Part shown: positions 10,574-26,453 of the stretch, in pieces
Position numbering within the stretch: position 1 is the stretch's first letter
Layout: each line of letters begins with the position of its first letter
Origin: Spirosoma linguale DSM 74
GTDB lineage: Bacteria > Bacteroidota > Bacteroidia > Cytophagales > Spirosomataceae
Direction of reading: 5' to 3'
Length of the DNA: 64,000 nucleotides
Assembly: GCA_000024525.1 (NCBI GenBank)
Contig: CP001769.1
Location: forward strand, 5,737,001 to 5,801,000
Notes under the pieces: generated by a model
Database searches by the model: none
Told to the model about the DNA's origin: nothing
Seen by the model: only the letters and a program-made list of their open reading frames with translations
Program-made: the position numbers and the translations under genes

Positions 10574-11214
10574 AAACAGGGTCGTTTGCAAACTGGATAC
10601 TGCGGCTTACCCGGTCTAGACTTTCATCTTGCGTACTACCCAACGCAGGCAGTATGCAAGATGAACAATGTACTACTAAACCAACTAGATCCCAGGCAAA
10701 TGAAGGTAAACCGACTTGTTAGCCCGATCATTTAGTTGAAGCAGTTTTTGGGCAAAACCTACCGTCTTTCAAGCGAGATTTTTGGGCAGTATACATGGCT
10801 GGCAACTACTAATGAAAAAGCGTTGATATATTTTATAAACAGGCCTTTATCGACTACGCTACTCACTATTTAGGATTCCCTTATTATGATACTTTTCACG
10901 CCTGATAACTAACAAGTTGGCCGGACAATTTTTAACCGTCGAATACGTCCGGGGCTGCTCAACGGATGGTTTGCCATGTTACGTAAGCATATAGGCCCAA
11001 TAGTTTGCATTGTTAGCTCAATACGTACAACCGGGATTCTTTTACAATCACATTTACCTACTCTTTTTGGCTTTTAGAAGACAAGGTTTTCGACTGATGT
11101 TCAATAAGTAACGCTCTTTCTACGGTTAGTATGTGTTTTTTAAAATCACATTATCCGTAGAGCAAGTAAATGGACTTGATGCTTTCGAACCGGCGTGTAC
11201 CAACGATCCCCACC
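10574..11214. other. Gene-free interval upstream of the curli region
   Basis: This 641-nt stretch holds no convincing gene. A perfect 10-bp inverted repeat (TTCATCTTGC at 10623-10632, GCAAGATGAA at 10656-10665) lies near the GH127 start. The last ~110 nt resemble the stretch before 20118, so the upstream regulatory region of the curli module was duplicated too. No clear TAnnTTTG promoter was found. Confidence 0.6.
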
Positions 11215-11616
11215 ATGCAGATTTTTATGTTTTTCGGCTTACTTTTTCTTTCCATACAAGCAGTCGCCCAACAGCCTCTCCCCAATACTACCCCTGCCGC
11301 AGATTCCCTACCCGAGGGTAAATCCAGGTTAACCAGTTCGTCGGTTTCGATTAGCCAGCAGGGAAGCAGCAACCGGGTTGTCCTTGTTCAGCAGGGCGGG
11401 GGCAGTTCCATCCAGATCAACCAGCAGAGTGAACCGGCATCCGGGGCTCAACAGATCGGGAAGCCGGGAAATCAAATCAGTTTGACCCTTGAGGCAGGAA
11501 CCCAGACCACCATCAGCCAACAGGGGCCCGGGCCGCAGGTGACTGCTGTTCATGACTTACCTGCGCCTGTAGGTAGTAAGCTCAAACGCCGGAGCAGGCC
11601 CGTAGGCCACCAGTAA
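11215..11616 (+). CDS. Small secreted curlin-like protein, copy 1 (candidate amyloid nucleator)
   Basis: The product has 133 residues from ATG 11215 (signal peptide MQIFMFFGLLFLSIQAVAQ); ATGs at 11170 and 11179 would give a longer start. The mature part holds Q-rich alternating strands (SVSISQQGSSNRVVLVQQG, SSIQINQQS, ISLTLEAGTQTTISQQG) resembling curlin repeats, and ends in a basic tail KLKRRSRPVGH. It is a close paralogue of the protein at 20118, and each copy is about 50 bp upstream of a curlin gene. A minor or nucleating subunit like CsgB is a plausible role, but this is inference. Confidence 0.65.
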   Translation: MQIFMFFGLLFLSIQAVAQQPLPNTTPAADSLPEGKSRLTSSSVSISQQGSSNRVVLVQQGGGSSIQINQQSEPASGAQQIGKPGNQISLTLEAGTQTTISQQGPGPQVTAVHDLPAPVGSKLKRRSRPVGHQ

Positions 11617-11668
11617 CCGTTACAGGCATTCCCCAAGTCATTAGTCATATATCCACTTTTTTGTACAC

Positions 11669-11936
11669 ATGAAAACCCTACTTAATACCAGCAAACGGCT
11701 GGTTTCCCTGAGCGTTGTGTCCTACGCTCAGTCGAATGTATCTACTCTAAACCAAATAGGAGTAGGTCAGGAAGCAGCCATTAACCAGAAGGGATCGGGG
11801 ATCGGGGCTCAAGGCTACCATCAACCAAACGGGCAACAGGAATGCCCACAACTATGGTGTTGTTACGCAGTCGGTCGGGCCTCAAACCGCCACCATCAAT
11901 CAAACAGGGGGTGCTATCAACGGCATTGACCTATAG
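11669..11936 (+). pseudogene. Frameshifted, truncated curlin gene (copy of the gene at 20592)
   Basis: The first ~45 codons match the start of the curlin gene at 20592, including SNVSTLNQIGVGQEAAINQKG. Near 11794-11812 the intact copy reads GGATTGGGCCAAAATGCC, while here bases are changed and the frame shifts. After the shift the other frame resumes the curlin sequence (ATINQTGNRNAHNYGVVTQ ...) and stops at 11934-11936. Read in the original frame it ends at 11929 with a non-curlin tail. The homologous gene continues for another ~330 codons that are absent here. It is therefore a remnant, unlikely to make a fibre subunit. Confidence 0.85.
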
Positions 11937-12021
11937 CTAACCGGGACAACAACCGCACATTTACGTCAACTTTCACTAACACATCCCACAACTTACTGAT
12001 TAACTGCACCGCTCTATTTTG

Positions 12022-15006
12022 ATGGAACATTTTGTACGAATGGGGACGGCTCCCCGTAATCCGTTTCTTTACCTGCTGCTCTGGGCAGGCCTTTGGCTGC
12101 TCTCCGCTCCCGCGCTGTTTGCGCAAACTGGTCTGCAACAGTCGCTGATTGCCAACCCCGATAATGCCGGAACTTACCAGGGCTACCAGGGCCAGCCGAT
12201 TGTGTTTAACAACGCGCTGTATGGCTTGTATCTGAACGAGAGTGGGGTCTATCAATTAGCCAAATACAATGGCACGAGTTTGACCCTGATTGCCAATCCC
12301 GATAATGCCGGAACTTACGAGGGCTATGATAGCGGTCTGATTGTGTTTAAAAACGCGCTGTATGGCGTTTATAGGAACGCGAGTAGAGTCTATCAATTAG
12401 TCAAATACAACGGCACAAGTTCGACCTTAATTGCCAACCCCGATGAGGCCCCAACTTACCTGGGCTATTATGGCCAGCCGATTGTGTTTAACGACGCGCT
12501 GTATGGCAAGTATATGAACAAGAGTGGGGCGTATCAATTAGTCAAATACAATGGCACGAGTTTGACCCTGATTGCCAACCCCGATAATGCCGGAAATTAC
12601 CAGGGCTACCATGGCGATCCGATTGTGTTTAACAACGCGCTGTATGGCCGGTATATGAACGCGAGTGGGGCCTATCAATTAGCCAAATCCAATGGCACGA
12701 GTTTGACCCTGATTGCCAACCCCGATAATGCCGAATTTTACCAGGGCTATGTAGACGATCTAGACTATCCGATTGTGTTTAATAACGCGCTGTATAGCCA
12801 GTATCTGAACGCGAGTGGGGCCTATCAATTAGCCAAATACGATGGCACGAGTTCTACTCTGATTGCCAACCCCGATAATGCCGGAAGTTACGAGGGCCAC
12901 TCGATTGTGTTTAACAACACCCTGTATGGCCAGTATCTGAACGCGAGTGGGGTTATTCAATTAGCCAAATACAATGGCACGAGTTCGACACTGATTGCCA
13001 ACCCCGATAATGCCGGAAGTTACCAGCGCTCCCCGATTGTGTTTAACAACGCCCTGTATGGCCAGTATCTGAACGCGAGTGGGGTCTATCAATTAGCCAA
13101 ATACGATGGCACGAGTTCGACCTTGATTGCCAACCCCGAAAATGGCCCAAGTTACCGGGGCTATATGAGCGATCCGATTGTGTTTAACAACGCCCTGTAT
13201 GGCAAGTATATGAACGCGAGTGGGGTTATTCAATTAGTCAAATACGATGGCACGAGTTCGACCCTGATTGCCAACCCCGATAATGCCAAAGGTTGCGATG
13301 GCCACTCGATTGTGTTTAACAACGCCCTGTATGGCAAGTATCTGAACAAGAGTGGGGTCTATCAATTAGTCACTGGGGTACCCTGTGCATTGTCGCTGAG
13401 TATCAACCCCTCCTCGCTAACGATAACAGCGGGTGGCTCGGTCACGCTTACCGCTTCCGGAGCTACGACCTACACCTGGAGCAACGGCAGCACGGCCAAC
13501 CCGCTTATCGTCAGCAACGTCACCAGTGCCACGGCCTTTTCAGTGACGGGCGTAACGGGTACGTGTTCGGCCACGGCCACGGCCAGCGTGAGCGTGGCCA
13601 CCATCACGGCGGGTACGACCTCGGGAACCATCACGGCTTGCGCGGGTACGGCATCGGCATTGCCCGCCGTGCAGCAATTCAACGTTTCGGGCAGCACTCT
13701 TTCAGGAAACATCGTGGCTAGTGCCCCGCTCGGTTTCGAGCTTTCCACCACTGCCAGCACTGGCTATGCGGCCTCTCTGACGCTCACTCAATCGAGTGGC
13801 GTAGTGGCCAACACCACCATCTACGTGCGCTCGTCTGCCTCGGCCAGCGGGAACCTTTCGGGCAATGTGAGTCTGGCTTCGAGCGGAGCGACGACGCAAA
13901 ACGTAGCCGTGAGTGGAACGGTTACCCCCCTGGCCACCATTACGGCCCAGCCCGTGGCCAGTTCATCGGTGTGCGCGGGCACGACGGTCACCGTCTCGGT
14001 GAGCACCAGTGGCCCGGTGAGCAGCTATCAGTGGTATAAAGGCGGCACCCTGCTCAGCGGCCAAACCTCGGCTACGCTCACCCTGACCAACCTCAGCACC
14101 ACCGATGCGGGCAGTTATTCGGTCGTGGTCACGGGCAATTGCAACAGCCTCACCTCAACCGCCTTTAGCCTGACAATCGTTGCCCGGCCCGACGCGCCCG
14201 CCCTGACCCCCGCCAGCTCTAGTCTGGCAGCGACTCTGACACCCCTCTCGCTGACGGGCTTTGCACTGGCAACCACCGGCAATAGCCTCCACTTCTTCCA
14301 AGCCGGAGGTAGTGAACTCAGCCCGCCCACCATCAATATTACCACTGCCGGGGTAATGAGCTTTTGGGTCGGCCAGACCAGCAACGCCAGCGGCTGCAAG
14401 AGTTCACTCACGCCATTGAGTCTGACCATCACGGCCACCCCCACCAGCCAGACGGCTACCCCCACCAGCCAGACCGTTTGCCGCAGCACCAACGTTACCC
14501 TGAACGTCACCGTGGAGGGAACCGCCTACCAGTGGTACAAAAACGGTACTACCCTAGCCAACAAACTTACCGAACTCACCAGTGCCCAGCGCGGTACGAC
14601 CACCGCCACCCTGACACTGGTCAATTTGCAAACCACCGCCGACTACTACTGCAAAATCACTACTCCCAACGGCGTTCAGACTGTGGGGCCCCTGAAGGTG
14701 AGTGTCAACTTTGGCTGTTCGGCCCGGCCTGCGGCCGAGGAAGCAGACTTGCAACTATTGGTACTGGTCAGGCCAAACCCTATCGTAGACGGCCACCTGC
14801 GGGCCCTGGTGAAGGGGGCTCAGGGGCAAGCCCTGAACGTAGCCCTCTACAGTCTGCAAGGGGAGTTGGTGAACCAGCAGGTCTGGGACTCAGCCCCGGC
14901 CGAGGTCAATCTAGATTGGGATATCAGCCAGCGCAGCATGGGTGTGTTACTCTTGCGGGCCCAGACCCCAACTCAGCAGCAAACCATCAGGCTTATCCAA
15001 AATTAA
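12022..15006 (+). CDS. Giant secreted repeat adhesin with type IX secretion C-terminal sorting domain
   Basis: About 994 residues from ATG 12022 (a second ATG at 12040 directly precedes the signal peptide ending SAPALFAQ). Nine tandem 44-50-residue repeats begin LIANPDNAG and carry PIVFNNALYG and YQLAKYNGTS. Then come Ig-like domains (VYQWYKGG- and AYQWYKNG-type strands) and a C-terminal ~80-residue sorting domain beginning VRPNPIVDGHLRA, ending TIRLIQN. The last part marks it as cargo of the type IX system, so it should be anchored at or released from the cell surface. The nine-repeat part may form a beta-propeller; its ligand is unknown. Confidence 0.8.
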   Translation: MEHFVRMGTAPRNPFLYLLLWAGLWLLSAPALFAQTGLQQSLIANPDNAGTYQGYQGQPIVFNNALYGLYLNESGVYQLAKYNGTSLTLIANPDNAGTYEGYDSGLIVFKNALYGVYRNASRVYQLVKYNGTSSTLIANPDEAPTYLGYYGQPIVFNDALYGKYMNKSGAYQLVKYNGTSLTLIANPDNAGNYQGYHGDPIVFNNALYGRYMNASGAYQLAKSNGTSLTLIANPDNAEFYQGYVDDLDYPIVFNNALYSQYLNASGAYQLAKYDGTSSTLIANPDNAGSYEGHSIVFNNTLYGQYLNASGVIQLAKYNGTSSTLIANPDNAGSYQRSPIVFNNALYGQYLNASGVYQLAKYDGTSSTLIANPENGPSYRGYMSDPIVFNNALYGKYMNASGVIQLVKYDGTSSTLIANPDNAKGCDGHSIVFNNALYGKYLNKSGVYQLVTGVPCALSLSINPSSLTITAGGSVTLTASGATTYTWSNGSTANPLIVSNVTSATAFSVTGVTGTCSATATASVSVATITAGTTSGTITACAGTASALPAVQQFNVSGSTLSGNIVASAPLGFELSTTASTGYAASLTLTQSSGVVANTTIYVRSSASASGNLSGNVSLASSGATTQNVAVSGTVTPLATITAQPVASSSVCAGTTVTVSVSTSGPVSSYQWYKGGTLLSGQTSATLTLTNLSTTDAGSYSVVVTGNCNSLTSTAFSLTIVARPDAPALTPASSSLAATLTPLSLTGFALATTGNSLHFFQAGGSELSPPTINITTAGVMSFWVGQTSNASGCKSSLTPLSLTITATPTSQTATPTSQTVCRSTNVTLNVTVEGTAYQWYKNGTTLANKLTELTSAQRGTTTATLTLVNLQTTADYYCKITTPNGVQTVGPLKVSVNFGCSARPAAEEADLQLLVLVRPNPIVDGHLRALVKGAQGQALNVALYSLQGELVNQQVWDSAPAEVNLDWDISQRSMGVLLLRAQTPTQQQTIRLIQN
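12145..13371 (+). repeat. Nine tandem ~140-bp coding repeats
   Basis: Each unit encodes LIANPD...PIVFNNALYG...GTSST. The units are very similar at DNA level, with long identical stretches such as GATTGTGTTTAACAACGC. Units 5 to 7 differ in length by small insertions or deletions in one loop, which suggests recent expansion and recombination between units. Confidence 0.9.
14182..15006 (+). repeat. Segmental duplicate of 17540-18343 (shared adhesin C-terminus)
   Basis: The last 825 bp of this gene are almost identical to the last 804 bp of the next adhesin gene. The 21-bp length difference is explained by a tandem duplication at 14431-14472 (ACGGCCACCCCCACCAGCCA and its near copy). The shared part encodes an Ig-like domain plus the type IX sorting domain. 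Confidence 0.9.
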
Positions 15007-15019
15007 CAGCTGTGGACCG

Positions 15020-15052
15020 ATCGCTCAAGGCCACGGCATGGATTTGAGCGAT
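15020..15052 (+). terminator. Hairpin after first adhesin gene
   Basis: A stem of ATCGCTCAA (15020-15028) with TTGAGCGAT (15044-15052) begins 13 bp after the stop. A related stem follows the second adhesin gene, so it was copied with the shared 3' end. No strong T-run follows. Confidence 0.45.
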
Positions 15053-15103
15053 ATAGCTACCTCAGTGCCCGTTTAGTTTATTAACAAGCCTGATTCCATA
15101 TCC

Positions 15104-18100
15104 ATGTACCTACTGAAACCAATTCAAATGCTAAAATTTTACCCGCCAACCGGCCTCGATAGGTCGGCGACTAACTCGTTTCGTCCTGACGCCAGTTGGG
15201 TCAGCCGACTAACCTGCTTAGTCGTATTTCTTTTACTGAGCCTGAGCAGCCCATTGCTAGCGCAATATAATTCCAACGCCGTAACAGTTGCCGGTACCGG
15301 TACCGCTGGTTCAGCCGCTAATCAGTTAGATAGTCCCTTCGGTATTTATGTTGACGAAGCCGGAAGCATGTATGTAGCTGATTACAACAACCACCGCGTC
15401 CAGAAATGGGCCTCGGGGGCTACCTCCGGAACTACTGTAGCCGGTACCGGTACCGCTGGTTCAGCCGCTAATCAGTTAAATCATCCTCTTGGTGTGTATG
15501 TAGACGGAGCGGGAGCCATCTATGTGTCTGACACCGATAACAATCGCGTCCAGAAATGGGCCTCGGGAGCTACCTCCGGAACTACAGTGGCCGGTACCGG
15601 TACCGCCGGTTCAGCTGCGAATCAGTTGAATTATCCTATAGGTATCTATGTAGACGGAGCGGGAGCCACCTATGTGGCTGATGCTTCTAACTCACGCATT
15701 CAGAAATGGGCTGCGGGAGCCACATCCGGTACTACCGTCGCCGGGGGGAATGGACAAGGCTCAGCTGCCAATCAGCTTTGGAGTGCAGCGGGTGTGTATA
15801 TAGACGGAGCAGGAGCCATTTATGTGGCTGACGGCGGAAACAACCGCATCCAGAAATGGGCCTCAGGGGCCACATCCGGTACCACCGTGGCCGGTACCGG
15901 AGTATATGGACCCGCCAGCAATCAACTATCATACCCATTTGCTGTGTATGTTGATGGAGCGGGCACGATGTATGTGAGCGACCAGCAATCTCACCGCATT
16001 CAGAAATGGACTGCGGGGGCGACCTCGGGTACCACCGTAGCCGGGGGGTACGGCAATGATGCTCTGGTGCCTTATCAGTTAAATTACCCAAGAGGTATTT
16101 ATCTTGACAGGGCCGGAGCCATCTATGTAGCCGACCAACGCAACAACCGCATCCAGAAGTTTAGTCGCATCAATCCACTCGTCAACCCTTCCCTGACCAT
16201 CGCCACAACGAGTCAGACCAGTTGTACAGGCGCATCGGTGAGCTTCACCGCCACTTCCACCAATGGCGGCACCAGCCCCGCTTACCAGTGGAAAAAGAAC
16301 GGCTCCAATGTGGGCACCAGTGACGCTACCTATACCGATGCGGCCCTGACTAGTGGCGATGTCATTAACTGCGTGCTCACCAGCAATGATCAATGGGCCT
16401 CCCCTACCACGGCCACCAGCAATAGCCTGACGATGACGGTCAACCCGCTACTTACCCCGGCCCTCACCCTTGCCATTACCACCGGCAGTCAGACCAGCTA
16501 TGCGGGCACCGCCATCACGTTTACCGCTACGCCTATCAATGGCGGTACCAACCCCAGATACCAGTGGAGAAAGAACGGCACCAACGTGGGCACCAACAGT
16601 GCCACCTACACTGATTTCGCCCTGGCCAACAATGACCTGATCAGCTGTATACTTGTCAGCAACGTCACCTGCTATACCACGCCCACCGCTGACAGCAATA
16701 GCCTGAAGATGACCGTCATCGCTCTGGTAACGCCTACCCTCACCATCGCCACCGGTAGCCAGACCAATTGCGCAGGCAAATCAGTCAGTTTCACCGCTAC
16801 GCCTACCAATGGCGGTAGCAGCCCCGCCTACCAGTGGAAAAAGAACGGCTCCAACGTGGGCACCAACAGTGCCACCTATACCGATGCCGCCCTGGCCAAC
16901 AATGACGTGATCAGTTGTGTGCTCACCAGCAATGCCCCCGGAACTACGACCAGCACGGCCACCAGCAACAGCCTGACGATGACGGTCAACCCGCTACTTA
17001 CCCCGGCCCTCACCCTTGCCATTACCACCGGCAGTCAGACCAGCTATGCGGGCACCGCCATCACGTTCACCGCTATGCCTACCAATGGCGGTACCAACCC
17101 GGCCTACCAGTGGAAAAAGAACGGCTCCAACGTGGGCACCAACACGGCGACCTACACTGATTTCGCCCTGGCCAACAATGATGTTATCAGTTGTGTGCTC
17201 ACCAGCAACGTCACCTGCCCCACCACGCCCACCGCTACCAGCAATGACCTGACCATGACCGTCATCGCTCTGGTAACGCCCACCCTCACCATCGCCACCA
17301 CCAGTAGCCAGACCAGTTGTGCAGGTACATCAGTCAGTTTCACCGCTACGCCTACCAATGGCGGTAGCAGCCCCGCCTACCAGTGGAAAAAGAACGGCTC
17401 CAACGTGGGCACTAACACGGCGACCTACACCGATGCCGCCCTGGCCAACAGTGACGTGATCAGCTGTGTGCTCACCAGCAATGCCCCCGGAACTACGACC
17501 AGCACGGCCACCAGCAATAGCCTGACGATGACGGTCAACGCCCGGCCCGATGCGCCCGCCCTGACCCCCGCCAGCTCTAGTCTGGCAGCGACTCTGACAC
17601 CCCTCTCGCTGACGAGCTTTGCACTGGCAACCACCGGCAATAGCCTCCACTTCTTCCAAGCCGGAGGTAGTGAACTCAGCCCCCCTACCGTCAGTATCGC
17701 CACTGCCGGGGTTATGAGCTTTTCGGTCGGCCAGACCAACAACGCCAGCGGCTGCAAGAGTTTACTCACGCCATTGAGTCTGACCATCACGGCCACCCCC
17801 ACCAGCCAGACCGTTTGCCGCAGTAGCAACGCCACTCTGAACGTCACTCTGGTGGGAACCGCCTTCCAGTGGTACAAAAACGGTACTACCACAGCCAACA
17901 AACTCACCGAGCTGACCAGTGCCCAGCGCGGTACGACCACCGCCACCCTGACACTGGTCAATTTGCAAACCACCGCCGACTACTACTGCAAAATCACTAC
18001 TTCCACCGGCGTTCAGACCGTGGGGCCCCTGAAGGTGAGTGTCAACTTTGGCTGTTCGGCCCGGCCTGCGGCCGAGGAAGCAGACTTGCAACTATTGGTA

Positions 18101-18343
18101 CTGGTCAGGCCAAACCCTATCGTAGACGGCCACCTGCGGGCCCTGGTGAAGGGGGCTCAGGGGCAAGCCCTGAACGTAGCCCTCTACAGTCTGCAAGGGG
18201 AGTTGGTGAACCAGCAGGTCTGGCCCTCGGCACCCGCCGAAGTCAATCTGGATTGGGACATCAGCCAGCGAACCACGGGAGTGTTACTCTTGCGGGCCCA
18301 GACCCCAACTCAACAGCAAACCATCAAGATTATCCAGAATTAA
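15104..18343 (+). CDS. Secreted NHL-propeller/Ig-repeat adhesin with type IX sorting domain
   Basis: 1079 residues, with a signal anchor at about residues 36-54; an ATG at 15128 is an alternative start. Six NHL repeats (GIYVDGAGAIYVADxxNNRIQKW type) make one complete six-bladed propeller (about residues 60-355). Five Ig-like units of about 90 residues follow, with AYQWKKNGSNVGTN, alternating in two types A-B-A-B-A. The C-terminus (from VNARPDAPALTP) is shared with the upstream adhesin and ends in the type IX sorting domain. It should be exported by the type IX system to the surface. The gene follows the first adhesin by about 100 bp. Confidence 0.82.
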   Translation: MYLLKPIQMLKFYPPTGLDRSATNSFRPDASWVSRLTCLVVFLLLSLSSPLLAQYNSNAVTVAGTGTAGSAANQLDSPFGIYVDEAGSMYVADYNNHRVQKWASGATSGTTVAGTGTAGSAANQLNHPLGVYVDGAGAIYVSDTDNNRVQKWASGATSGTTVAGTGTAGSAANQLNYPIGIYVDGAGATYVADASNSRIQKWAAGATSGTTVAGGNGQGSAANQLWSAAGVYIDGAGAIYVADGGNNRIQKWASGATSGTTVAGTGVYGPASNQLSYPFAVYVDGAGTMYVSDQQSHRIQKWTAGATSGTTVAGGYGNDALVPYQLNYPRGIYLDRAGAIYVADQRNNRIQKFSRINPLVNPSLTIATTSQTSCTGASVSFTATSTNGGTSPAYQWKKNGSNVGTSDATYTDAALTSGDVINCVLTSNDQWASPTTATSNSLTMTVNPLLTPALTLAITTGSQTSYAGTAITFTATPINGGTNPRYQWRKNGTNVGTNSATYTDFALANNDLISCILVSNVTCYTTPTADSNSLKMTVIALVTPTLTIATGSQTNCAGKSVSFTATPTNGGSSPAYQWKKNGSNVGTNSATYTDAALANNDVISCVLTSNAPGTTTSTATSNSLTMTVNPLLTPALTLAITTGSQTSYAGTAITFTAMPTNGGTNPAYQWKKNGSNVGTNTATYTDFALANNDVISCVLTSNVTCPTTPTATSNDLTMTVIALVTPTLTIATTSSQTSCAGTSVSFTATPTNGGSSPAYQWKKNGSNVGTNTATYTDAALANSDVISCVLTSNAPGTTTSTATSNSLTMTVNARPDAPALTPASSSLAATLTPLSLTSFALATTGNSLHFFQAGGSELSPPTVSIATAGVMSFSVGQTNNASGCKSLLTPLSLTITATPTSQTVCRSSNATLNVTLVGTAFQWYKNGTTTANKLTELTSAQRGTTTATLTLVNLQTTADYYCKITTSTGVQTVGPLKVSVNFGCSARPAAEEADLQLLVLVRPNPIVDGHLRALVKGAQGQALNVALYSLQGELVNQQVWPSAPAEVNLDWDISQRTTGVLLLRAQTPTQQQTIKIIQN
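16165..17539 (+). repeat. Higher-order A-B-A-B-A Ig-domain repeat
   Basis: Type A units carry S(V)SFTATPTNGG and end with TATSNSLTMTV; type B units carry SYAGTAITFTA and a VTC.TTPTA segment. The A-B pair recurs with a period of about 545 bp (compare 16445 with 16991), so amplification used a two-domain unit. Confidence 0.8.
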
Positions 18344-18351
18344 TAGCCGAT

Positions 18352-18392
18352 GTCTATCGCTCAGTTCCGGACAACGGCCCTGAGCGATAGAC
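18352..18392 (+). terminator. Perfect 13-bp stem after second adhesin gene
   Basis: GTCTATCGCTCAG (18352-18364) pairs with CTGAGCGATAGAC (18380-18392) just after the stop at 18343. It is the counterpart of the weaker hairpin at 15020 and a likely end of the adhesin transcript. Confidence 0.6.
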
Positions 18393-18436
18393 CCCCTGAG
18401 TAGTAGTTTATCTTTTATCTATTTAATTTTTTATCA

Positions 18437-19849
18437 ATGAACCGTATACTTCTTTCGGCCCTGCTATTGACAGCGATCACCAGCCAGGCCCAGACCAATA
18501 CATCTGTGCTGAGCCAGACCGGCATCAGCCAGACCGCAACCGTTTTCCAACAGGGTAGCGGTAACCAGCTTACGCTGAATCAGAACACCGGTACCGGCAT
18601 AACGGCTAATATTGGTAACGTGGCCAGTACCACCCAGGTGGGGGCCAGTACCAACGGAAGCACTAACCAGGCCTTTATTCAACAAGTCAACGGCTCCTAT
18701 TACAATACCGGCAACATTCTACAGACAGGCGGATCGGGCAACGCAGCGACCATTGAGCAGGCCAACAATGCCGGCGGAACCGGGCTTTATGGCATCGGTA
18801 ATGGCAACACAGCCAGCATCAGCCAGACGGGGGCCTATAACACCGATGTACTAATTCGCCAGGTGGGCGGTGATCTGGGTGCCAGCCAGCAAAACAAGGC
18901 CACCATTTCTCAGGTGGGCAGCAAAATGAGCACTACCGGAGGCACGGTCATCGAGCAAGTTAACCAGTCGATTGCCAATACGGCCACCATTTCTCAAGGC
19001 GTACTAAGCACAGACGCAACTACTAACACGGCTACATTACTACAGAACAACAATAGCCAGCGTAACACGGCCACTATCAGCCAGGAGAAATCCGGCCAGA
19101 CAGCCGACTTACGGCAGACCGACGGCAGCAACGACAACAGGGCCAGTATTGAGCAGTTGGGAACCAACGGATCGGCTACGCTTTACCAGAGTAACCTGGC
19201 GAGTAATAATACCGCCAGCATTCTACAAAGCGCCACCAGCGCAGGTAGCCAGGCCACTATTTATCAGACTAATACCAGCACCTACAATACGGCAACTATC
19301 GATCAGGCATCGACAAACAGCGCGGCTCTGATTAGTCAGGACAATCAGGCCGCCAATCAGGTAGCGACCATCGGGCAGGGAACGAACGGTAATAACAACG
19401 TAGCCGCCATTACCCAGACCTATACCCATGCACTGGGAGACGATGCCACCAGCAACAGGGCCACCATTAATCAAAACCTGACCTCTTCGGGTAGTGTGGG
19501 CAACCAGGCCACCATTACGCAGGGCTTTTCGGAGGGCCAATCGACGGTAACGGGTAGGAAGGTTCCTTCTGACCTCAACCAGGCAACGATCAGCCAGGAA
19601 GGTGACGCTCATGTGGCCAGCCTGATGCAGGGTGGCCTGAGTAACCAGGCCACCCTAACCCAGACGGGTACGGGTAATGTAGTAAAAGGCGTTGATTCGG
19701 GTTCGATTATTAGTGATACCGCCCAGCAGTTAGGTGATATGAACCTGTTAAACGTAATTCAGGGGGGATCGAGTGTAGCCAATGTACTTCAGATCGGCAC
19801 CGCCAACATGGCGACAATCAGCCAAAACAACGCCCAGAAACCTCAATAA
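18437..19849 (+). CDS. Curlin-repeat protein, CsgA-like major fibre subunit
   Basis: 470 residues with signal peptide MNRILLSALLLTAITSQAQ. The rest is built of about 20-residue curlin-type repeats rich in Gln, Asn, Thr, Ser and Ala, with strands of the type ATISQ, ATIEQ and ATLLQNN separated by short Gly/Asn turns (GSGNQLTLNQNTG at the start). It is several times longer than E. coli CsgA (151 residues). It should be secreted through CsgG and polymerise as amyloid. It lies between the type IX adhesins and the second nucleator-subunit pair. Confidence 0.85.
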   Translation: MNRILLSALLLTAITSQAQTNTSVLSQTGISQTATVFQQGSGNQLTLNQNTGTGITANIGNVASTTQVGASTNGSTNQAFIQQVNGSYYNTGNILQTGGSGNAATIEQANNAGGTGLYGIGNGNTASISQTGAYNTDVLIRQVGGDLGASQQNKATISQVGSKMSTTGGTVIEQVNQSIANTATISQGVLSTDATTNTATLLQNNNSQRNTATISQEKSGQTADLRQTDGSNDNRASIEQLGTNGSATLYQSNLASNNTASILQSATSAGSQATIYQTNTSTYNTATIDQASTNSAALISQDNQAANQVATIGQGTNGNNNVAAITQTYTHALGDDATSNRATINQNLTSSGSVGNQATITQGFSEGQSTVTGRKVPSDLNQATISQEGDAHVASLMQGGLSNQATLTQTGTGNVVKGVDSGSIISDTAQQLGDMNLLNVIQGGSSVANVLQIGTANMATISQNNAQKPQ

Positions 19850-20027
19850 GGCTGACATCACACCTCGTATCGACTGCAACCGGGAGCAACTGGTGGTCTT
19901 TAGTATCTGCCATCAACCTCCGGCCAGCTATCAACTATAAAACGTACCGGCTGTTGGAAAGAGAAGGCTTGGTGTGTTACATGATATATGGGGTCAATAG
20001 GTTTCATTATTAGCCCAACACCCACGC

Positions 20028-20053
20028 TTGAAAGGCTATTTCAATTATGTTTG
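20028..20053 (+). promoter_or_regulatory. Candidate Bacteroidota promoter before the second curlin module
   Basis: TATGTTTG at 20046-20053 fits the -7 consensus TAnnTTTG. A TTG at 20028-20030 sits 15 nt upstream, slightly closer than usual. It is 65 bp before the small secreted protein gene. Confidence 0.35.
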
Positions 20054-20117
20054 ACTATTCCCGTTGTCTTTCAAAAGAAAAGTTGTGGGCTGATAATCAA
20101 TAAGTTTGTCTCTTTCT

Positions 20118-20540
20118 ATGGTACCAGCTATCCCCACCCTACAAGTTTTTATGTTTTTTGGTTTACTTTTTCTTTCGCTACAAGCAGTCGCCCAACAGTC
20201 TCTCCCCAACACTAGCCCTGCCACAGATTCCCTACCCGAGGGTCGATCCAGATTAACCAACTCGTCGGTTTCGATCAGCCAGCAGGGAAGCAGCAACCGC
20301 GTTGTCCTTGTTCAGCAGGGCGGGGGCAGTTCCATTCAGATCAGCCAGCAAAGTGAACCGGCATCCGGGGCCCAGCAGATCGGCAAGCAGGGGAATCAAA
20401 TCAGTTTGACCGTTGAGGCAGGGACCCAGGCTACCATCAGCCAACAGGGGCCCGGGCCACAGCTGGTCGACATTCACCACTTGCCTGCGCCCGTAGGTCG
20501 TAAGGCCAGACGCCGGAGCCGCCCCCCAGGCCACAAGTAA
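20118..20540 (+). CDS. Small secreted curlin-like protein, copy 2 (candidate amyloid nucleator)
   Basis: 140 residues from ATG 20118; the Met used in copy 1 is Leu here (LQVFMFFGLLFLS), which supports an upstream start. The mature region is nearly identical to copy 1: SVSISQQGSSNRVVLVQQGG, SSIQISQQS, then a basic tail KARRRSRPPGHK. The conserved core and tail between two diverged copies point to selection on both. The intact curlin gene starts 51 bp downstream. Role as a CsgB-like nucleator or anchor is inference; the family is not one I can name. Confidence 0.68.
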   Translation: MVPAIPTLQVFMFFGLLFLSLQAVAQQSLPNTSPATDSLPEGRSRLTNSSVSISQQGSSNRVVLVQQGGGSSIQISQQSEPASGAQQIGKQGNQISLTVEAGTQATISQQGPGPQLVDIHHLPAPVGRKARRRSRPPGHK

Positions 20541-20591
20541 ACGATACAAGCATACCCGATTCATTATTCATACATCCACTTTTTTTTACAC

Positions 20592-21839
20592 ATGAAAACA
20601 GTACTAATTGCCAGCATTATGCTGACTTCAGTGAGCGTTGTGTCATACGCTCAGTCGAATGTATCTACTCTGAATCAGATAGGAGTAGGTCAGGAAGCAG
20701 CCATTAACCAGAAGGGATTGGGCCAAAATGCCACCATCAACCAAACGGGCGACAGGAATGCCCACAACTATGGTGTTGTTACGCAGTCGGGCGGCCCTCA
20801 AACCGCCACGATCAATCAAATAGGCGGTACCATAAACAGCTACGTTAATATACAACAGACAGGCGAAACCGCTTCTGATCAAAGTTCAGCCAATACGGCA
20901 ACGGTAACCCAGGAAGGTTTGGCAACGGCCTGGGAAACTTGGTCTCGTACTTGGGTTCATGAAGCACGTCGCACTATTGAAGAAACACTCAGGACTTCAT
21001 GGGGACAAGGAGGAGCGGTTGATGTGTATCAGTCTGGAAAAAGAAATTCGGTCACTGTTTCACAGTCCGGTGCTGAAACCATTGGTGAGCTGGTTACAGT
21101 TAAACAGATCGGCAATGGCAATAGTGGAGTTATTACCCAAACAATTGTAGCGGATCATTTTTACTTCAGAGAAATAAATAGTGTAAAATTACGCCAAACT
21201 GGAGATAATAATACCGCTACGTTAAGTCAAATAGCGGCCGGAAACGATTATATAAGTGTTGTTCAGACTGGCAATAACAACAGTAGTACGGTTAGTCAAA
21301 CCGGAGCAGGAGAGAACATCAGTGCAACTGTTACACAGACGGGGTCTTTCAATTCAGCTACGGTTAACCAAAATCCAGCTGATGGAGCAACTACAAGGAT
21401 TACACAAACAGGCGACTATTTCAGCGCTACTGTCACACAGAATAGTAATAATATCGCTGTGATCGACCAGCGCAATTCAGGTCTAAGTGGCAGTTCAGTC
21501 ACTGTTTTGCAGGATGGTAGCCGTAACTTAACAAATATTACTCAAGGCACGGATGAACTCTCGGTTAATAACGCCGTTGCCAACGTGACTCAAACCGGCG
21601 ATGACAACTCGGTCAAGTTGTTTCAAACTGGTTCAGATCAGACAGCTACTATTTCTCAAACCGGTAATGGGAACAGATTATTAGGTATAGAAGGTGAAAC
21701 ATCTTTCGCGTCTCAATCTGGCGCAGGAAACACCCTAACGCTTACCCAAACGAATGAAATCGGTGGCCCTGGTAATCAGGCTTTCGTTAATCAGCAAGGC
21801 TACGCCAACGCTGCCACTATTACACAAAGAGCTCAATAA
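20592..21839 (+). CDS. Curlin-repeat protein, CsgA-like fibre subunit
   Basis: 415 residues with signal peptide MKTVLIASIMLTSVSVVSYA. Curlin-type repeats run through the whole mature protein (STLNQIGVGQEAAINQ, ATINQTGDRN, ATVTQNSNNIA, ATISQTGNGN), each about 18-23 residues with Gln/Asn ladders. A less regular insert at about residues 110-145 (TAWETWSRTWVHEARR) interrupts them. It is the intact relative of the remnant at 11669 and is paired with the small protein at 20118. It is likely exported via CsgG in the downstream csgEFG genes. Confidence 0.87.
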   Translation: MKTVLIASIMLTSVSVVSYAQSNVSTLNQIGVGQEAAINQKGLGQNATINQTGDRNAHNYGVVTQSGGPQTATINQIGGTINSYVNIQQTGETASDQSSANTATVTQEGLATAWETWSRTWVHEARRTIEETLRTSWGQGGAVDVYQSGKRNSVTVSQSGAETIGELVTVKQIGNGNSGVITQTIVADHFYFREINSVKLRQTGDNNTATLSQIAAGNDYISVVQTGNNNSSTVSQTGAGENISATVTQTGSFNSATVNQNPADGATTRITQTGDYFSATVTQNSNNIAVIDQRNSGLSGSSVTVLQDGSRNLTNITQGTDELSVNNAVANVTQTGDDNSVKLFQTGSDQTATISQTGNGNRLLGIEGETSFASQSGAGNTLTLTQTNEIGGPGNQAFVNQQGYANAATITQRAQ

Positions 21840-21958: not shown

Positions 21959-22453
21959 ATGCGCCAGTGCATTGCACTACTTTTTTACCTGCTTCTTCTA
22001 ACGCAGGTTACGGTTGCCCAACCAACTTCAGAGGTTTTCATTACCCAATTAACGGCGGCCACAGTAACCGGCTCGGGCCGTACCAACGCGGCTTTGCCCA
22101 ACACAGGAGGTAACGAACTGATCATTCAACAGGCAGGAAATAATAACACGGTGGGCGTACAGAACAATGGTGTGGGCAACCAACTTCAGGCCCTGCAAAC
22201 CAATACAGAGGGGAGCAATAATCAAATCGACCTACAACTAACTGGCGACAACAACAACTACAAACTAACGCAGGACGGTAGTAATAATGTATTTCGCCTG
22301 CCGAACGCAACCACCAGCAATGCGCAGTTGGAAGTAACCCAGGAAGGGAATGGCAACGCCATTAGTAGTCAGGGCAACCTGACCACAACGTCAGTCCATG
22401 TGATCATTCACCAGACCGGTGGCATGAGAATACAACTACTTCCGCCCAATTGA
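21959..22453 (+). CDS. Small curlin-like secreted protein, probable minor fibre subunit
   Basis: 164 residues with signal peptide MRQCIALLFYLLLLTQVTVA. Repeats of curlin type appear as ELIIQQAGNNNTVGVQNNG, QIDLQLTGDNNNYKLTQDG and LEVTQEGNGNAIS. It is the first gene of a tight run with csgE, csgF and csgG. Position and length resemble a CsgB or small CsgA subunit, but sequence alone does not decide which. Confidence 0.7.
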   Translation: MRQCIALLFYLLLLTQVTVAQPTSEVFITQLTAATVTGSGRTNAALPNTGGNELIIQQAGNNNTVGVQNNGVGNQLQALQTNTEGSNNQIDLQLTGDNNNYKLTQDGSNNVFRLPNATTSNAQLEVTQEGNGNAISSQGNLTTTSVHVIIHQTGGMRIQLLPPN

Positions 22454-22470
22454 ACCAGCCATTTCCGGCC

Positions 22471-22992
22471 ATGTGCTATTGTCCTAAACCTGCCCACTAT
22501 TTTTTCACCATCCTGTTTATGCTTCTCTGCGGCAGCCTGGCTTTTGCCCAGAATCCGGCTTCGGAAGAAGACATGGAGAGTTTGGCGATTGACGAACGAC
22601 TATCCGAACAAGGCCCCCAAACCCTCATCCTGGACAATAGCCGAACCAAAATTGGCCGTGAATTTTACGACAGTTTTTTTCGGGAGTTTGTTCTTCCAGC
22701 GCCCACCACGCCAGCCGACTCCAGCGGACTGAGTAAAAAAGCACAGGATTTAGAAACAGACAGCTGGGTCATCACCATTGAAGAACTGCCCTCCACATCG
22801 GCCACCAGCAATATCATTTCAGTATCCATCAACGACGAATTAATCTGGCAGCAATTTGTGCAGGTTCGAATAGACTTGATCGAAGACTATGCGCTCAACG
22901 CCGTTGAAACGCTTCGCCAGTACATCATCTCGTATGAGCAAACGCAACAACAACTCCAGACGGAGGACCAGAAAGGCACTGGGCTCCATTAA
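22471..22992 (+). CDS. csgE: Curli assembly protein CsgE
   Basis: The product has 173 residues from ATG 22471; the frame extends back to TTG 22450, over the previous stop, but the ATG directly precedes the signal peptide. The core TKIGREFYDSFF and the later SVSINDELIWQQF match CsgE, the periplasmic cap of the CsgG channel that delivers subunits. A Thr/Ser-rich insert of about 20 residues after FVLPAPTTP is not in E. coli CsgE. It lies 20 bp before csgF. Confidence 0.88.
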   Translation: MCYCPKPAHYFFTILFMLLCGSLAFAQNPASEEDMESLAIDERLSEQGPQTLILDNSRTKIGREFYDSFFREFVLPAPTTPADSSGLSKKAQDLETDSWVITIEELPSTSATSNIISVSINDELIWQQFVQVRIDLIEDYALNAVETLRQYIISYEQTQQQLQTEDQKGTGLH

Positions 22993-23012: not shown

Positions 23013-23438
23013 ATGTCAATAGTAAGTAGACTTATGGTGCTGCTGATTGTCTCAGCTGGCAGTACTCAGGCTCAGGCCCTGGTGTATCATCCTAACAACC
23101 CGGCTTTTGGCGGTAACACCTTTAACTACCAGTGGATGCTCAGTTCGGCCCAGGCCCAGGACCGACTCACCGATCCGACCTTAAAAAAAACGACTGCCAC
23201 CGCCACCAAAACCAGCAACCAGCTCAGCGACTTAGCCACCAGCATTCAACGCCAATTGCTCAGCCGGATTACCAACGACTTACTAAAAAACCAGTTTGGC
23301 GAGAACAGCTCGCTTAAGGAAGGAACCTACAAATACGGTGACTTTACGGTAACGATCCGGAATCAGTATGACGGTATTTATATCCGTATTGTCGACAATC
23401 AGGGGGGCGAAACGTCTATTCAGGTGCCCTACTTCTGA
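23013..23438 (+). CDS. csgF: Curli assembly protein CsgF
   Basis: 141 residues with a signal peptide ending STQAQA. The mature N-terminus LVYHPNNPAFGGNTFN, followed by LSSAQAQD and DP, is the hallmark of CsgF, which plugs into the CsgG pore on the outside and couples secretion to nucleation. C-terminal GGETSIQVPYF ends a beta segment, as in the family. It sits between csgE and csgG, in the same order as in many curli operons. Confidence 0.93.
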   Translation: MSIVSRLMVLLIVSAGSTQAQALVYHPNNPAFGGNTFNYQWMLSSAQAQDRLTDPTLKKTTATATKTSNQLSDLATSIQRQLLSRITNDLLKNQFGENSSLKEGTYKYGDFTVTIRNQYDGIYIRIVDNQGGETSIQVPYF

Positions 23439-23483: not shown

Positions 23484-24920
23484 ATGAAATTCTACCGATC
23501 AGTGATTACCTATTCCCGAATTATACCCTTTAGTTGCCTGTGGGTTTTATCAGGCTGCGCTGCCTACCTCCACCAGCCCACCGGATTGCAACGAGCCCGG
23601 CTGGGCGAAGAAACCACCACCACAGCCGCCTTGCGAAACCTACCCAAGGCCAAAGAAAAAGTGGTCGTTGCTGTTTATAAATTCAGAGATCAGACTGGCC
23701 AATATAAGTTATCGGAAACCGGCTCCACCTTTTCAACTGTAGTCTCGCAGGGAACCACCAACATCCTGCTCAAAGCCCTTGAAGAAAGCGGCTGGTTCAC
23801 CACCATCGAGCGGGAAAACGTCAGTAACCTGTTGAACGAACGGAAAATTATCCGTTCCAGCGTGGCTCAGTATAAAGAGGGAGAGAATCTTCCACCCCTA
23901 CTTTTTGCCGGTGTTATTCTGGAAGGAGGCATTGTTTCCTACGATGCCAATATCATCACGGGCGGGGCTGGCTTACGGTATTTTGCAACGGGTGGATCGA
24001 CCCAATACCGTCAGGACCGGGTAACGGTTTACTTACGGGCAGTGGCCACTCGCTCGGGCAAAATCCTGAAAACGGTTTATACCTCCAAAACGATTCTTTC
24101 CCAGTCGGTCGATGCCGGTATTTTTCGGTACGTCACCTTCAAAAAACTACTGGAAGCAGAAACCGGCTTTTCGACAAACGAACCTTCGCAGATGGCCGTT
24201 ACGGAAGCGATTGAAAAAGCCGTTCAGGCCTTAGTACTGGAAGGTATTCAGGATGGGCTTTGGGCGGTGTCTGACAAAGACACTGGGGTGGCCAAACGTG
24301 AGCTGGATCGCTACGATGCCGAAAAGGTGAACATGAGTCAAACGGACGTGTATGGCGTGCAATCGCCCCAGATCAGAACACCCTCTCGATTCACTGTTCA
24401 ACCATACGCATCCGTATGGCGTTTTTCCGGCGATTATGCAGGCAGTGTGATCCGGCCCGCTTATGGCCTGACCGTTGATCTGTACCTGAAACCAGCCTGG
24501 GGACTTCAGGTAAATGCCGGTAATGGTACGCTGGCCTGTGGCCAAGGATTTTCGGGTAACTTCACACTGCTCAACGGCAACATTGTCTGGCGCAGCTTGC
24601 CCTACCAGCGCTTTTCGCCCATTCTCACGTTGGGAGGAGGAGTCCTGTATAACCGCAACGCTAATGACGTATTTCGCGTTGCAGGCCTACTACATGCCAC
24701 CATCAATGCCGGTATCGGATGTCAATACGCTCCCAACGGCATCTGGGGATTCCGGTCTATGCTCAACTACCACCAGTCGTTAAACGATCAGGTTGACGGA
24801 CTGCGGGCGGGGCAATTCAATGATTTTGTTCTACAAGCATCGTTTGGAGTAACCCTTTCAATTGGACACTTACGCCAGAGCCAGCCAACAGCTCAAAAAA
24901 AACGAGTAAAGAGTAAGTAA
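23484..24920 (+). CDS. csgG: Curli secretion channel CsgG with extra C-terminal barrel-like domain
   Basis: 478 residues against about 277 in E. coli. The lipobox LSGC puts the lipidated Cys at residue 25. The CsgG domain (about 50-258) is clear: VVVAVYKFRDQTGQYK, LLNERKIIRSS, GGAGLRYFATGGSTQYRQD, SKTILSQSVDAGIFRY. At the gate the Phe of E. coli (FST) is kept, but the Tyr and Asn before it are not obviously conserved. Residues ~290-460 form a Gly/aromatic beta-rich stretch like an outer-membrane barrel (PYASVWRFSGDY, GVTLSIG). The tail is basic. It should form the outer-membrane export pore for curlins. Confidence 0.92.
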   Translation: MKFYRSVITYSRIIPFSCLWVLSGCAAYLHQPTGLQRARLGEETTTTAALRNLPKAKEKVVVAVYKFRDQTGQYKLSETGSTFSTVVSQGTTNILLKALEESGWFTTIERENVSNLLNERKIIRSSVAQYKEGENLPPLLFAGVILEGGIVSYDANIITGGAGLRYFATGGSTQYRQDRVTVYLRAVATRSGKILKTVYTSKTILSQSVDAGIFRYVTFKKLLEAETGFSTNEPSQMAVTEAIEKAVQALVLEGIQDGLWAVSDKDTGVAKRELDRYDAEKVNMSQTDVYGVQSPQIRTPSRFTVQPYASVWRFSGDYAGSVIRPAYGLTVDLYLKPAWGLQVNAGNGTLACGQGFSGNFTLLNGNIVWRSLPYQRFSPILTLGGGVLYNRNANDVFRVAGLLHATINAGIGCQYAPNGIWGFRSMLNYHQSLNDQVDGLRAGQFNDFVLQASFGVTLSIGHLRQSQPTAQKKRVKSK

Positions 24921-24923
24921 GCC

Positions 24924-26453
24924 ATGAATAACAGCTATTATCTTGTTCGCCGTCTAGTTGGCTGGCTGAATCTATTAACGATTGTTTCTATAATTGGGAG
25001 TTGCACGGAAACGACTTTTGTCGACGTCCAGACATTTGGTTCGGTACGCGGTCAGGTCTTGCTCAGTACCACCCGGGAGCCAGTACAAAAGGCGCTGGTT
25101 CGACTGAGTCCATCCGGCCAACTTATGGAAACCGATACGGATGGGCGATTTCGTTTCGATAGCTTACCACCCACCCGGTATACCGTTACGGTGACGAAAG
25201 AAAAGTATGCTACTGAGTTAGCTACCGTCGATGCCACCGTCAGTTACGTGTCTCTGCTCACGATATTGATGCGGGATGATAAATCGCAGAATAAACCTCC
25301 TACGGCTCCAACGGTTGTGAGCCCAGCCCCTGGTAGTACTACAGTAACGACAGCCGTTACCCTCAAATGGGCCGCTACGGACCCTAACCGGGATACATTG
25401 ACCTATCAGGTCATGCTGTATAAGGCCGGCGACATAACCAATGTAATGTCGTTTACCGGACTCACCGTCGACTCGCTGGCGCTATCCGGTCTGGCTTACA
25501 ACACAACTTACTATTGGCATGTTGCCGTCAGTGATGGAATCAGTACGACCAATGGCCCGGTCTGGTCGTTCAGAACAATCCCTTTCTCAGCCTATAGCTA
25601 TGTATTTTGTCGGCGTGTGTCGGGTATGTACCAATTGTTTTCCGGCAATGGCAATAAACTGCCGGTTCAGCAACTCACAACGGAAGGCAGCAACTGGCGT
25701 CCTATCGTAAGCCCTAACCGCCAGCAGATTGCCTTTATATCGAACCGCAATTCTGAACTTCACCTTTACCTGATGGATCAGGATGGAAGCCATGTTCGAC
25801 AAGTCACCGACGTGCCTATCGGTGGAATTTTGGGGACTGATTTGTCATTTTGTTGGTCGCCAGACGGCACCGAGCTGGTCTATCCGGCTTACGAGAACCT
25901 GTATGCTGTTCGGACAGATGGCACCGGGTTACGGACAGTTGCCAAGGCGCCTACTGGACGTTTTTTTGCCGGATGTGACTGGAGCGGCCAGCGTAATCAA
26001 CTCGTTGCCCGCACTACTGGCGGTAATTTGTATAACAATGAGTTAATTCTAATTTCGGTGTCGGGAAATACCCAGAAACTCCTGCTTGCCAGGCCCACCA
26101 ACCGGATAGGTAACCCTGTGTTCTCCCTTGACGGAACGCAGATACTTTTTGCAATGGACGTCAGTATTTTTCAGAATGCAAAAGGTCGTCAACTAGACTC
26201 CAGAATTCATAAGCTCGATATCGCCACGGGCGTTGTAAGCAATCTGTCACTTGATCCTGGCAACCTGCTTACTATAAGTAAGCCAACTGGTACGAATGAC
26301 CTCGATCCCCGGTTTTCGCCAACGGGCGGCAAAATCATTTTTATAAATAGCGAAAATACGGACCAGGGAAGCAGTTCGATTATGACAATGGCAACAGACG
26401 GGACAAGCCGGACCGTTTTGTTTTCACTGGGTGAAATGCCTTTTTGGCAATAG
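24924..26453 (+). CDS. Lipoprotein with CnaB-like, FN3 and TolB-like propeller domains
   Basis: 509 residues; lipobox IIGSC gives Cys27. Residues ~38-115 resemble a carboxypeptidase-regulatory/CnaB fold (GSVRGQVLLSTTREPVQKA), ~125-215 a fibronectin type III domain (PPTAPTVVSPAPGS, YNTTYYWHVAVSDG), and ~220-509 a TolB/PD40-type propeller (RQQIAFISNRNSELHLYLM). It begins 3 bp after csgG stops, so it is very likely cotranscribed. It could bind fibres or polymers at the surface; this is inference. Confidence 0.75.
   Translation: MNNSYYLVRRLVGWLNLLTIVSIIGSCTETTFVDVQTFGSVRGQVLLSTTREPVQKALVRLSPSGQLMETDTDGRFRFDSLPPTRYTVTVTKEKYATELATVDATVSYVSLLTILMRDDKSQNKPPTAPTVVSPAPGSTTVTTAVTLKWAATDPNRDTLTYQVMLYKAGDITNVMSFTGLTVDSLALSGLAYNTTYYWHVAVSDGISTTNGPVWSFRTIPFSAYSYVFCRRVSGMYQLFSGNGNKLPVQQLTTEGSNWRPIVSPNRQQIAFISNRNSELHLYLMDQDGSHVRQVTDVPIGGILGTDLSFCWSPDGTELVYPAYENLYAVRTDGTGLRTVAKAPTGRFFAGCDWSGQRNQLVARTTGGNLYNNELILISVSGNTQKLLLARPTNRIGNPVFSLDGTQILFAMDVSIFQNAKGRQLDSRIHKLDIATGVVSNLSLDPGNLLTISKPTGTNDLDPRFSPTGGKIIFINSENTDQGSSSIMTMATDGTSRTVLFSLGEMPFWQ

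Follow-up and report, generated by a model that had tools for sequence, protein, structure and literature searches.

The stretch of DNA analysed here (the window) covers 64,000 nucleotides of contig CP001769.1 of the soil bacterium Spirosoma linguale DSM 74, whose genome comprises 8,491,258 bases in 9 contigs. It contains a curli region in which all genes lie on the forward strand, in the order small gene, csgA remnant, two large proteins, csgA, small gene, csgA, A2, csgE, csgF, csgG and a gene for a TolB-like protein. The genes csgE, csgF and csgG adjoin the curlin genes, as in a curli (type VIII secretion) operon. The features are as follows.

11215..11616, + strand: small basic curlin, upstream copy (133 aa, with signal peptide and curlin repeat; last 20 residues net +4)
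11669..11929, + strand: csgA remnant, not a working curlin (frameshifted and cut off; 86-aa ORF)
12019-15006, + strand: large protein, first of two
15104-18343, + strand: large protein, second of two
18437..19849, + strand: long curlin, csgA, of the major-subunit type (470 aa, calculated pI 4.5)
20118..20540, + strand: small basic curlin, downstream copy (mature protein of calculated pI 11.5; net charge of tail +7; start codon either TTG at 20106 or ATG at 20118)
20592..21839, + strand: csgA, intact long curlin partner, beginning 51 bp past the small gene (415 aa, calculated pI 4.7)
21959..22453, + strand: A2, second minor curlin, between csgA and csgE (164 aa, calculated pI 4.8)
22450..22992, + strand: csgE (PF10627)
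23013..23438, + strand: csgF (PF10614)
23484..24920, + strand: csgG (PF03783)
24924-26453, + strand: TolB-like protein (CarboxypepD_reg and TolB-like propeller matches)

The two large secreted proteins between the curli genes, which read in the same direction, are 76% identical in their C-terminal parts. The first contains a 141-bp tandem repeat in 8.8 copies, and its match to a T9SS sorting domain is slightly below the cut-off (22.3 vs 23 bits). The csg locus of Spirosoma fluviale is without these two proteins. Many of the Bacteroidota curli loci examined have, after csgG, a CarboxypepD_reg/TolB-like protein of the type encoded at 24924-26453; the annotated csg region of E. coli K-12 has none.

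The small proteins are curlins with a basic tail

In both small proteins a leader resembling a signal peptide is combined with one or more curlin repeats (PF07012, 24.4 and 21.6 bits vs a gathering cut-off of 20.7) and a tail rich in Arg and Lys, in agreement with a preliminary description of this DNA, which had recognised a conserved core and a basic tail. When sequences of the PDB were searched with a family profile (33 sequences, both window copies among them), 8c50 was matched at an E value of 2.6e-28 and E. coli CsgA (8enq) at 1.2e-4. AlphaFold2 predicted for a window copy, with modest confidence (mean pLDDT 63), six strands between residues 40 and 112, forming about three repeats, and a coil tail. 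For a full-length relative (mean pLDDT 75.7) the prediction was of eight strands (residues 22-112), about four repeats, and an unstructured coil tail from residue 113. A Foldseek search returned no match at an E value of 0.001 or better. In most aligned relatives the repeat begins directly after the leader. The window copies and the S. fluviale protein have about 20 additional residues before the repeat and are missing the stretch that precedes the tail, and the window proteins therefore look like a shortened branch of the family.

The small gene was duplicated and its upstream copy lies beside a dead csgA

The segments 11197-11924 and 20121-20840 are 85.7% identical over 728 columns, so the likeness of the two small genes is not due to chance, and their products are 85% identical. 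The proposal that these are paralogous secreted proteins is thereby confirmed. It had also been stated that each lies about 50 bp before a curlin gene. The distances to the next gene are indeed 52 bp for the upstream and 51 bp for the downstream copy, but the neighbour of the upstream copy is a remnant: it follows the downstream csgA for the first ~40 codons, after which a 7-bp length difference shifts the frame, the similarity block stops ~83 codons into csgA, and the 86-aa ORF gives no PF07012 match.

The region 10961-11924, comprising the upstream copy and the sequence ahead of it, is collinear with the sister genome, that of S. fluviale (78.8%); for the downstream copy the match with that species begins only at 20124. 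Because it retains the collinear front region, the upstream copy seems, from this comparison, to occupy the older position. The dN/dS ratio was 0.31 between the window copies and 0.22 for each against S. fluviale. For the upstream branch, a hand estimate from three pairs, with small numbers, gave ~0.27, from which the upstream copy is apparently still constrained despite its dead partner. On these ratios, both small genes of the window look to be under constraint.

Remnants were also seen in S. fluviale, at 12521-12842 and 14076-14382 of the stretch examined there (L032), between three tandem csgA genes. In each, sequence like the start of A2 runs into the last ~36 codons of the small gene, and these are footprints of tandem duplication.

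Strong homologues belong to one family and accompany long curlin genes

To assess the distribution of the small protein, 198 related genomes were searched with a family profile. Some match was obtained in 42 of them, many being long curlins. Restricting the hits to strong and short ones (E value below 1e-15, open frame under 200 aa) left 33 homologues in 21 genomes, all of one family and including Spirosoma, Fibrella, Fibrisoma and Siphonobacter, genera that we take to be Spirosomataceae. Two of the 33 (L051 and L090) are at contig ends and were left out of the linkage count. For 29 of the 31 testable genome-wide hits, a long curlin gene occurs on the same strand no more than 300 bp away. The two exceptions are the upstream window copy, whose neighbour is the csgA remnant, and L053, which precedes a long curlin by about 540 bp. 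Adding seven weaker members from csgF loci, whose linkage is biased because they were found only through such loci, gave 35 of 38, with a third exception (L078) adjoining A2. Constant linkage to curlin genes was the check that the preliminary description had set for itself; no homologue away from curlin genes was seen among the 31, or among the 38 with the csgF-locus members.

Three arrangements could be distinguished. In type I, the small gene stands immediately before csgA. The downstream window copy and its type I relatives, which read in the same direction as csgA, occupy the position of csgB, and in 16 pairs the two ORFs were predicted in that order, without overlap, 27-63 bp apart. Four type I genes (L038, L041, L052 and L053) have no csgE, csgF or csgG within the 18-kb stretch examined; all but L053 keep the 27-63 bp spacing. 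Type II members have a Lys-rich tail and come after a long curlin gene rather than before csgA, mostly between it and A2 or csgE. Type III proteins, from Fibrella and Rudanella, are shorter (109-120 aa) and their tails are weaker.

The search for CsgF gave 49 loci, spread over 42 of the 198 genomes, and all 49 loci were examined for a short basic curlin, defined as a protein with a curlin repeat, at most 185 aa and a pI above 8.5. Because this rule itself demands a high pI, the resulting counts are no test of charge. Such a protein is present at 33 of the 49 loci and absent by the rule from 16; among the latter, L069 does carry the protein, with a pI of 8.3, and for at least three (L065, L080 and L087) little upstream sequence is available. 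Of 80 named Bacteroidota loci, 23 have such a protein by the rule, of which one (L155) is probably a false positive. Milder basic small curlins occur at two Dyadobacter loci, two Litoribacter loci, one of three Belliella loci, one Mongoliibacter locus and one Seramator locus. None was found by the rule in the examined loci of Flavobacteriaceae, Hymenobacter and Pontibacter, and three Pontibacter loci contain no curlin of any kind. A further 36 loci drawn across the phylum contained 32 short curlins; two of these had a tail of at least +4, and one of the two is probably spurious.

The pairing of small protein and curlin that had been proposed is borne out as linkage, but not as a fixed 1:1 relation: one small gene of the window has a dead partner, and at one S. 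fluviale locus three tandem csgA genes share a single small gene. The latter ratio is more in keeping with a minor subunit in substoichiometric amounts than with a 1:1 partner. The S. fluviale genome has one further small gene, at a second csg locus.

Positive charge is retained while the tail diverges

To follow the charge, 40 small proteins (33 genome-wide and 7 from csgF loci) were collected with a profile from which the last 28 residues had been removed. The calculated pI was above 8 in all 40 (median 9.98), in 2 of 107 long curlins (median 4.68) and in 1 of 41 A2 proteins (median 4.99), values that come from a crude signal-peptide cut, which failed on some long ORFs (e.g., L034, L043, L044 and L067). 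These charge counts, like the locus counts, ignore shared descent. The last 20 residues carried a net charge of at least +4 in 32 of the 40 small proteins; the eight below this value include those of the Fibrella/Rudanella type (+1 to +3). By size class, such tails were found in 33 of 53 short curlins, a class into which the dead window fragment and a small number of spurious ORFs also fell, in 2 of 126 long curlins and in 0 of 40 A2 proteins.

Without its tail, the small protein is near neutral (median -2). Mean pairwise identity was 38% for cores and, taking the best of four offsets, 24% for tails. Judged from these alignments, the sequence of the tail drifts and its positive charge stays. 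A search of databases yielded 76 homologues, 63 of them not identical to alignment rows over the last 60 residues. A tail of at least +4 was present in 59 of these 63, a count that lends support but is no unbiased test, since the profile included the tail, and some of the 63 are near-identical to alignment rows.

A basic minor subunit beside an acidic major one was taken as a feature of CsgB from the E. coli K-12 control, and this combination was found here too, with CsgA of Siphonobacter as an exception. At three Siphonobacter loci (L042, L047 and L049) the small protein is basic and CsgA, with pI values of 6.0, 8.95 and 7.15, is not clearly acidic, which weakens the case for charge pairing with CsgA.

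Comparison with CsgB

The available part of a 2012 survey distinguishes CsgB from CsgA in Gammaproteobacteria only and reports csgC as absent from Bacteroidetes (PMC3521004), and a 2025 survey, in its portion at hand, names CsgB only within complete csgBAC operons (PMC12822426). With csgC reported missing there, it would follow that neither survey names a CsgB in Bacteroidetes, as far as these portions go (PMC3521004, PMC12822426).

By profile, the small proteins are far from the CsgB equivalog NF007506 (13.7 and 12.5 bits vs a curated cut-off of 165), and the CsgA model gave 18.2 and 11.1 bits. In its general features the small basic curlin resembles E. coli CsgB: each is a small curlin-repeat protein encoded directly before csgA on the same strand, with a gap of 40 bp in E. 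coli and 51 bp in the window. Each is also basic beside an acidic CsgA and positive at its C-terminal end. In the control the calculated pI and the charge of the last 20 residues were 9.30 and +4 for CsgB and 4.51 and 0 for CsgA, signal-peptide lengths being those that we assume for these proteins. The basic end shared with CsgB, which the preliminary description had pointed out, is thus real and conserved in the family. The likeness has limits. In the small proteins the charge lies beyond the predicted strands, in a tail rich in Pro, Arg and Lys, whereas in CsgB it lies in the fifth repeat; repeats of about 22 residues number 4-5 in CsgB, while about three are predicted for the window copies and about four for the full-length relative; and, unlike in E. 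coli, a second minor curlin is present. According to the part of the study seen, the R5 repeat of CsgB is positively charged and CsgB minus R5 is less ready to form amyloid, but this variant still enters CsgF condensates, so the basic end is dispensable for contact with CsgF (PMC10133297).

A candidate role in starting curli fibres

Taken together, position, linkage and charge make the small basic curlin a candidate for a lineage-specific minor curli subunit that works like CsgB, orthology to CsgB being left aside; we hold this tentatively, at close to even chances. The protein would be exported through the CsgG channel, as CsgA is. Its short solenoid could present a curlin edge as a template for the folding and stacking of CsgA, and the disordered basic C-terminal tail might block its end against further stacking. 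The tail may also hold the protein to the cell surface, through CsgF or outer-membrane polyanions. Fibres would then originate at the cell and elongate in a single direction.

The main competitor for this role is A2, a short, curlin-like, secreted protein of the same operon. Unlike the small basic curlin, it is acidic, commoner in the loci examined, and encoded after csgA and ahead of csgE. With a permissive rule (low score threshold), A2 was detected at 42 of the 49 csgF loci and at 68 of the 80 named Bacteroidota loci, usually after the long curlins and often as the last curlin gene ahead of csgE or csgF. Most aligned members end in a C-terminus of the IEQTGG type, and the window A2 has no Pfam match over the cut-off. 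A2 may be the ancestral nucleator. It could even be the nucleator of Bacteroidota curli in general, with the small basic curlin as an accessory: its core would be incorporated into the fibre or cap it, and its tail would tether the fibre to polyanions (lipopolysaccharide, exopolysaccharide or DNA). Such a division of labour is favoured by the wide occurrence of A2, set against strong small-protein homologues that come from a single family of the 198 relatives, and by Siphonobacter, where the basic tail is retained though CsgA is not clearly acidic. On the other hand, A2 is acidic like CsgA and in this unlike E. coli CsgB, and in the window and at other type I loci it is the small gene, not A2, that holds the csgB position before csgA. 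We regard nucleation by A2 as rather unlikely on this evidence. The earlier proposal of a CsgB equivalent specific to this group is thereby qualified: the specificity stands for strong homologues, all of one family within the 198 relatives searched, but the equivalence is not backed by NF007506 and has a rival in the commoner A2.

The small protein might instead act before export, as an electrostatic anti-nucleation chaperone that keeps CsgA soluble and replaces CsgC. The inhibitors CsgC and CsgH resemble it as basic partners of an acidic subunit; in the part of the report at hand, they inhibit CsgA through positive charge and have a mean pI two units above that of the major subunit (PMC4838910). 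The reported absence of csgC from Bacteroidetes would leave room for such a substitute (PMC3521004). However, CsgC and CsgH are described there as having their own fold and a defining cysteine pattern, and they are not curlins (PMC4838910), whereas the small protein has a curlin repeat; the window copies contain no cysteine, and hence no pair of the CxC or distant kind. CsgH-like sequences are moreover reported in Bacteroidetes, in the same part of that source, so a stand-in for CsgC may be unneeded (PMC4838910). We consider a chaperone improbable. More improbable still is an ordinary extra fibre subunit without dedicated role, multiplied by locus recombination and with an incidental basic tail: the window and S. 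fluviale loci do show duplication and debris, and some operons lack the protein, which would suit it, but charge is retained across divergent tails and the upstream copy is intact next to its dead partner.

Curli nucleators might be recognisable across phyla by charge inversion, that is, by a small basic curlin beside acidic fibre subunits, and not by sequence. The Spirosomataceae would show this inversion as a hyper-basic tail separate from the repeats, a form that differs from E. coli CsgB and was perhaps reached independently. This generalisation is speculative and we think it doubtful. The charge rule and the two distinct minor-curlin families would provide candidates for the curli starter or anchor in a phylum in which curli operons are widespread, and possibly a second way of building a surface-tethered amyloid nucleator. 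As far as the literature searched shows, novelty is limited to the family itself, the charge rule and the candidate role, because three database homologues have already been named "minor curlin subunit" by automatic annotation.

Other curlin genes in the genome

The genome of the window contains a second curli locus with csgE, csgF and csgG (L034; contig 1, 7357000-7368000). It has its own type II small basic curlin, with the tail KKKNQKGKQK, and no A2 gene by the rule applied. Three more curlin genes, encoding proteins of 392, 241 and 441 aa (L033, L035 and L036), are distant from both csg loci.
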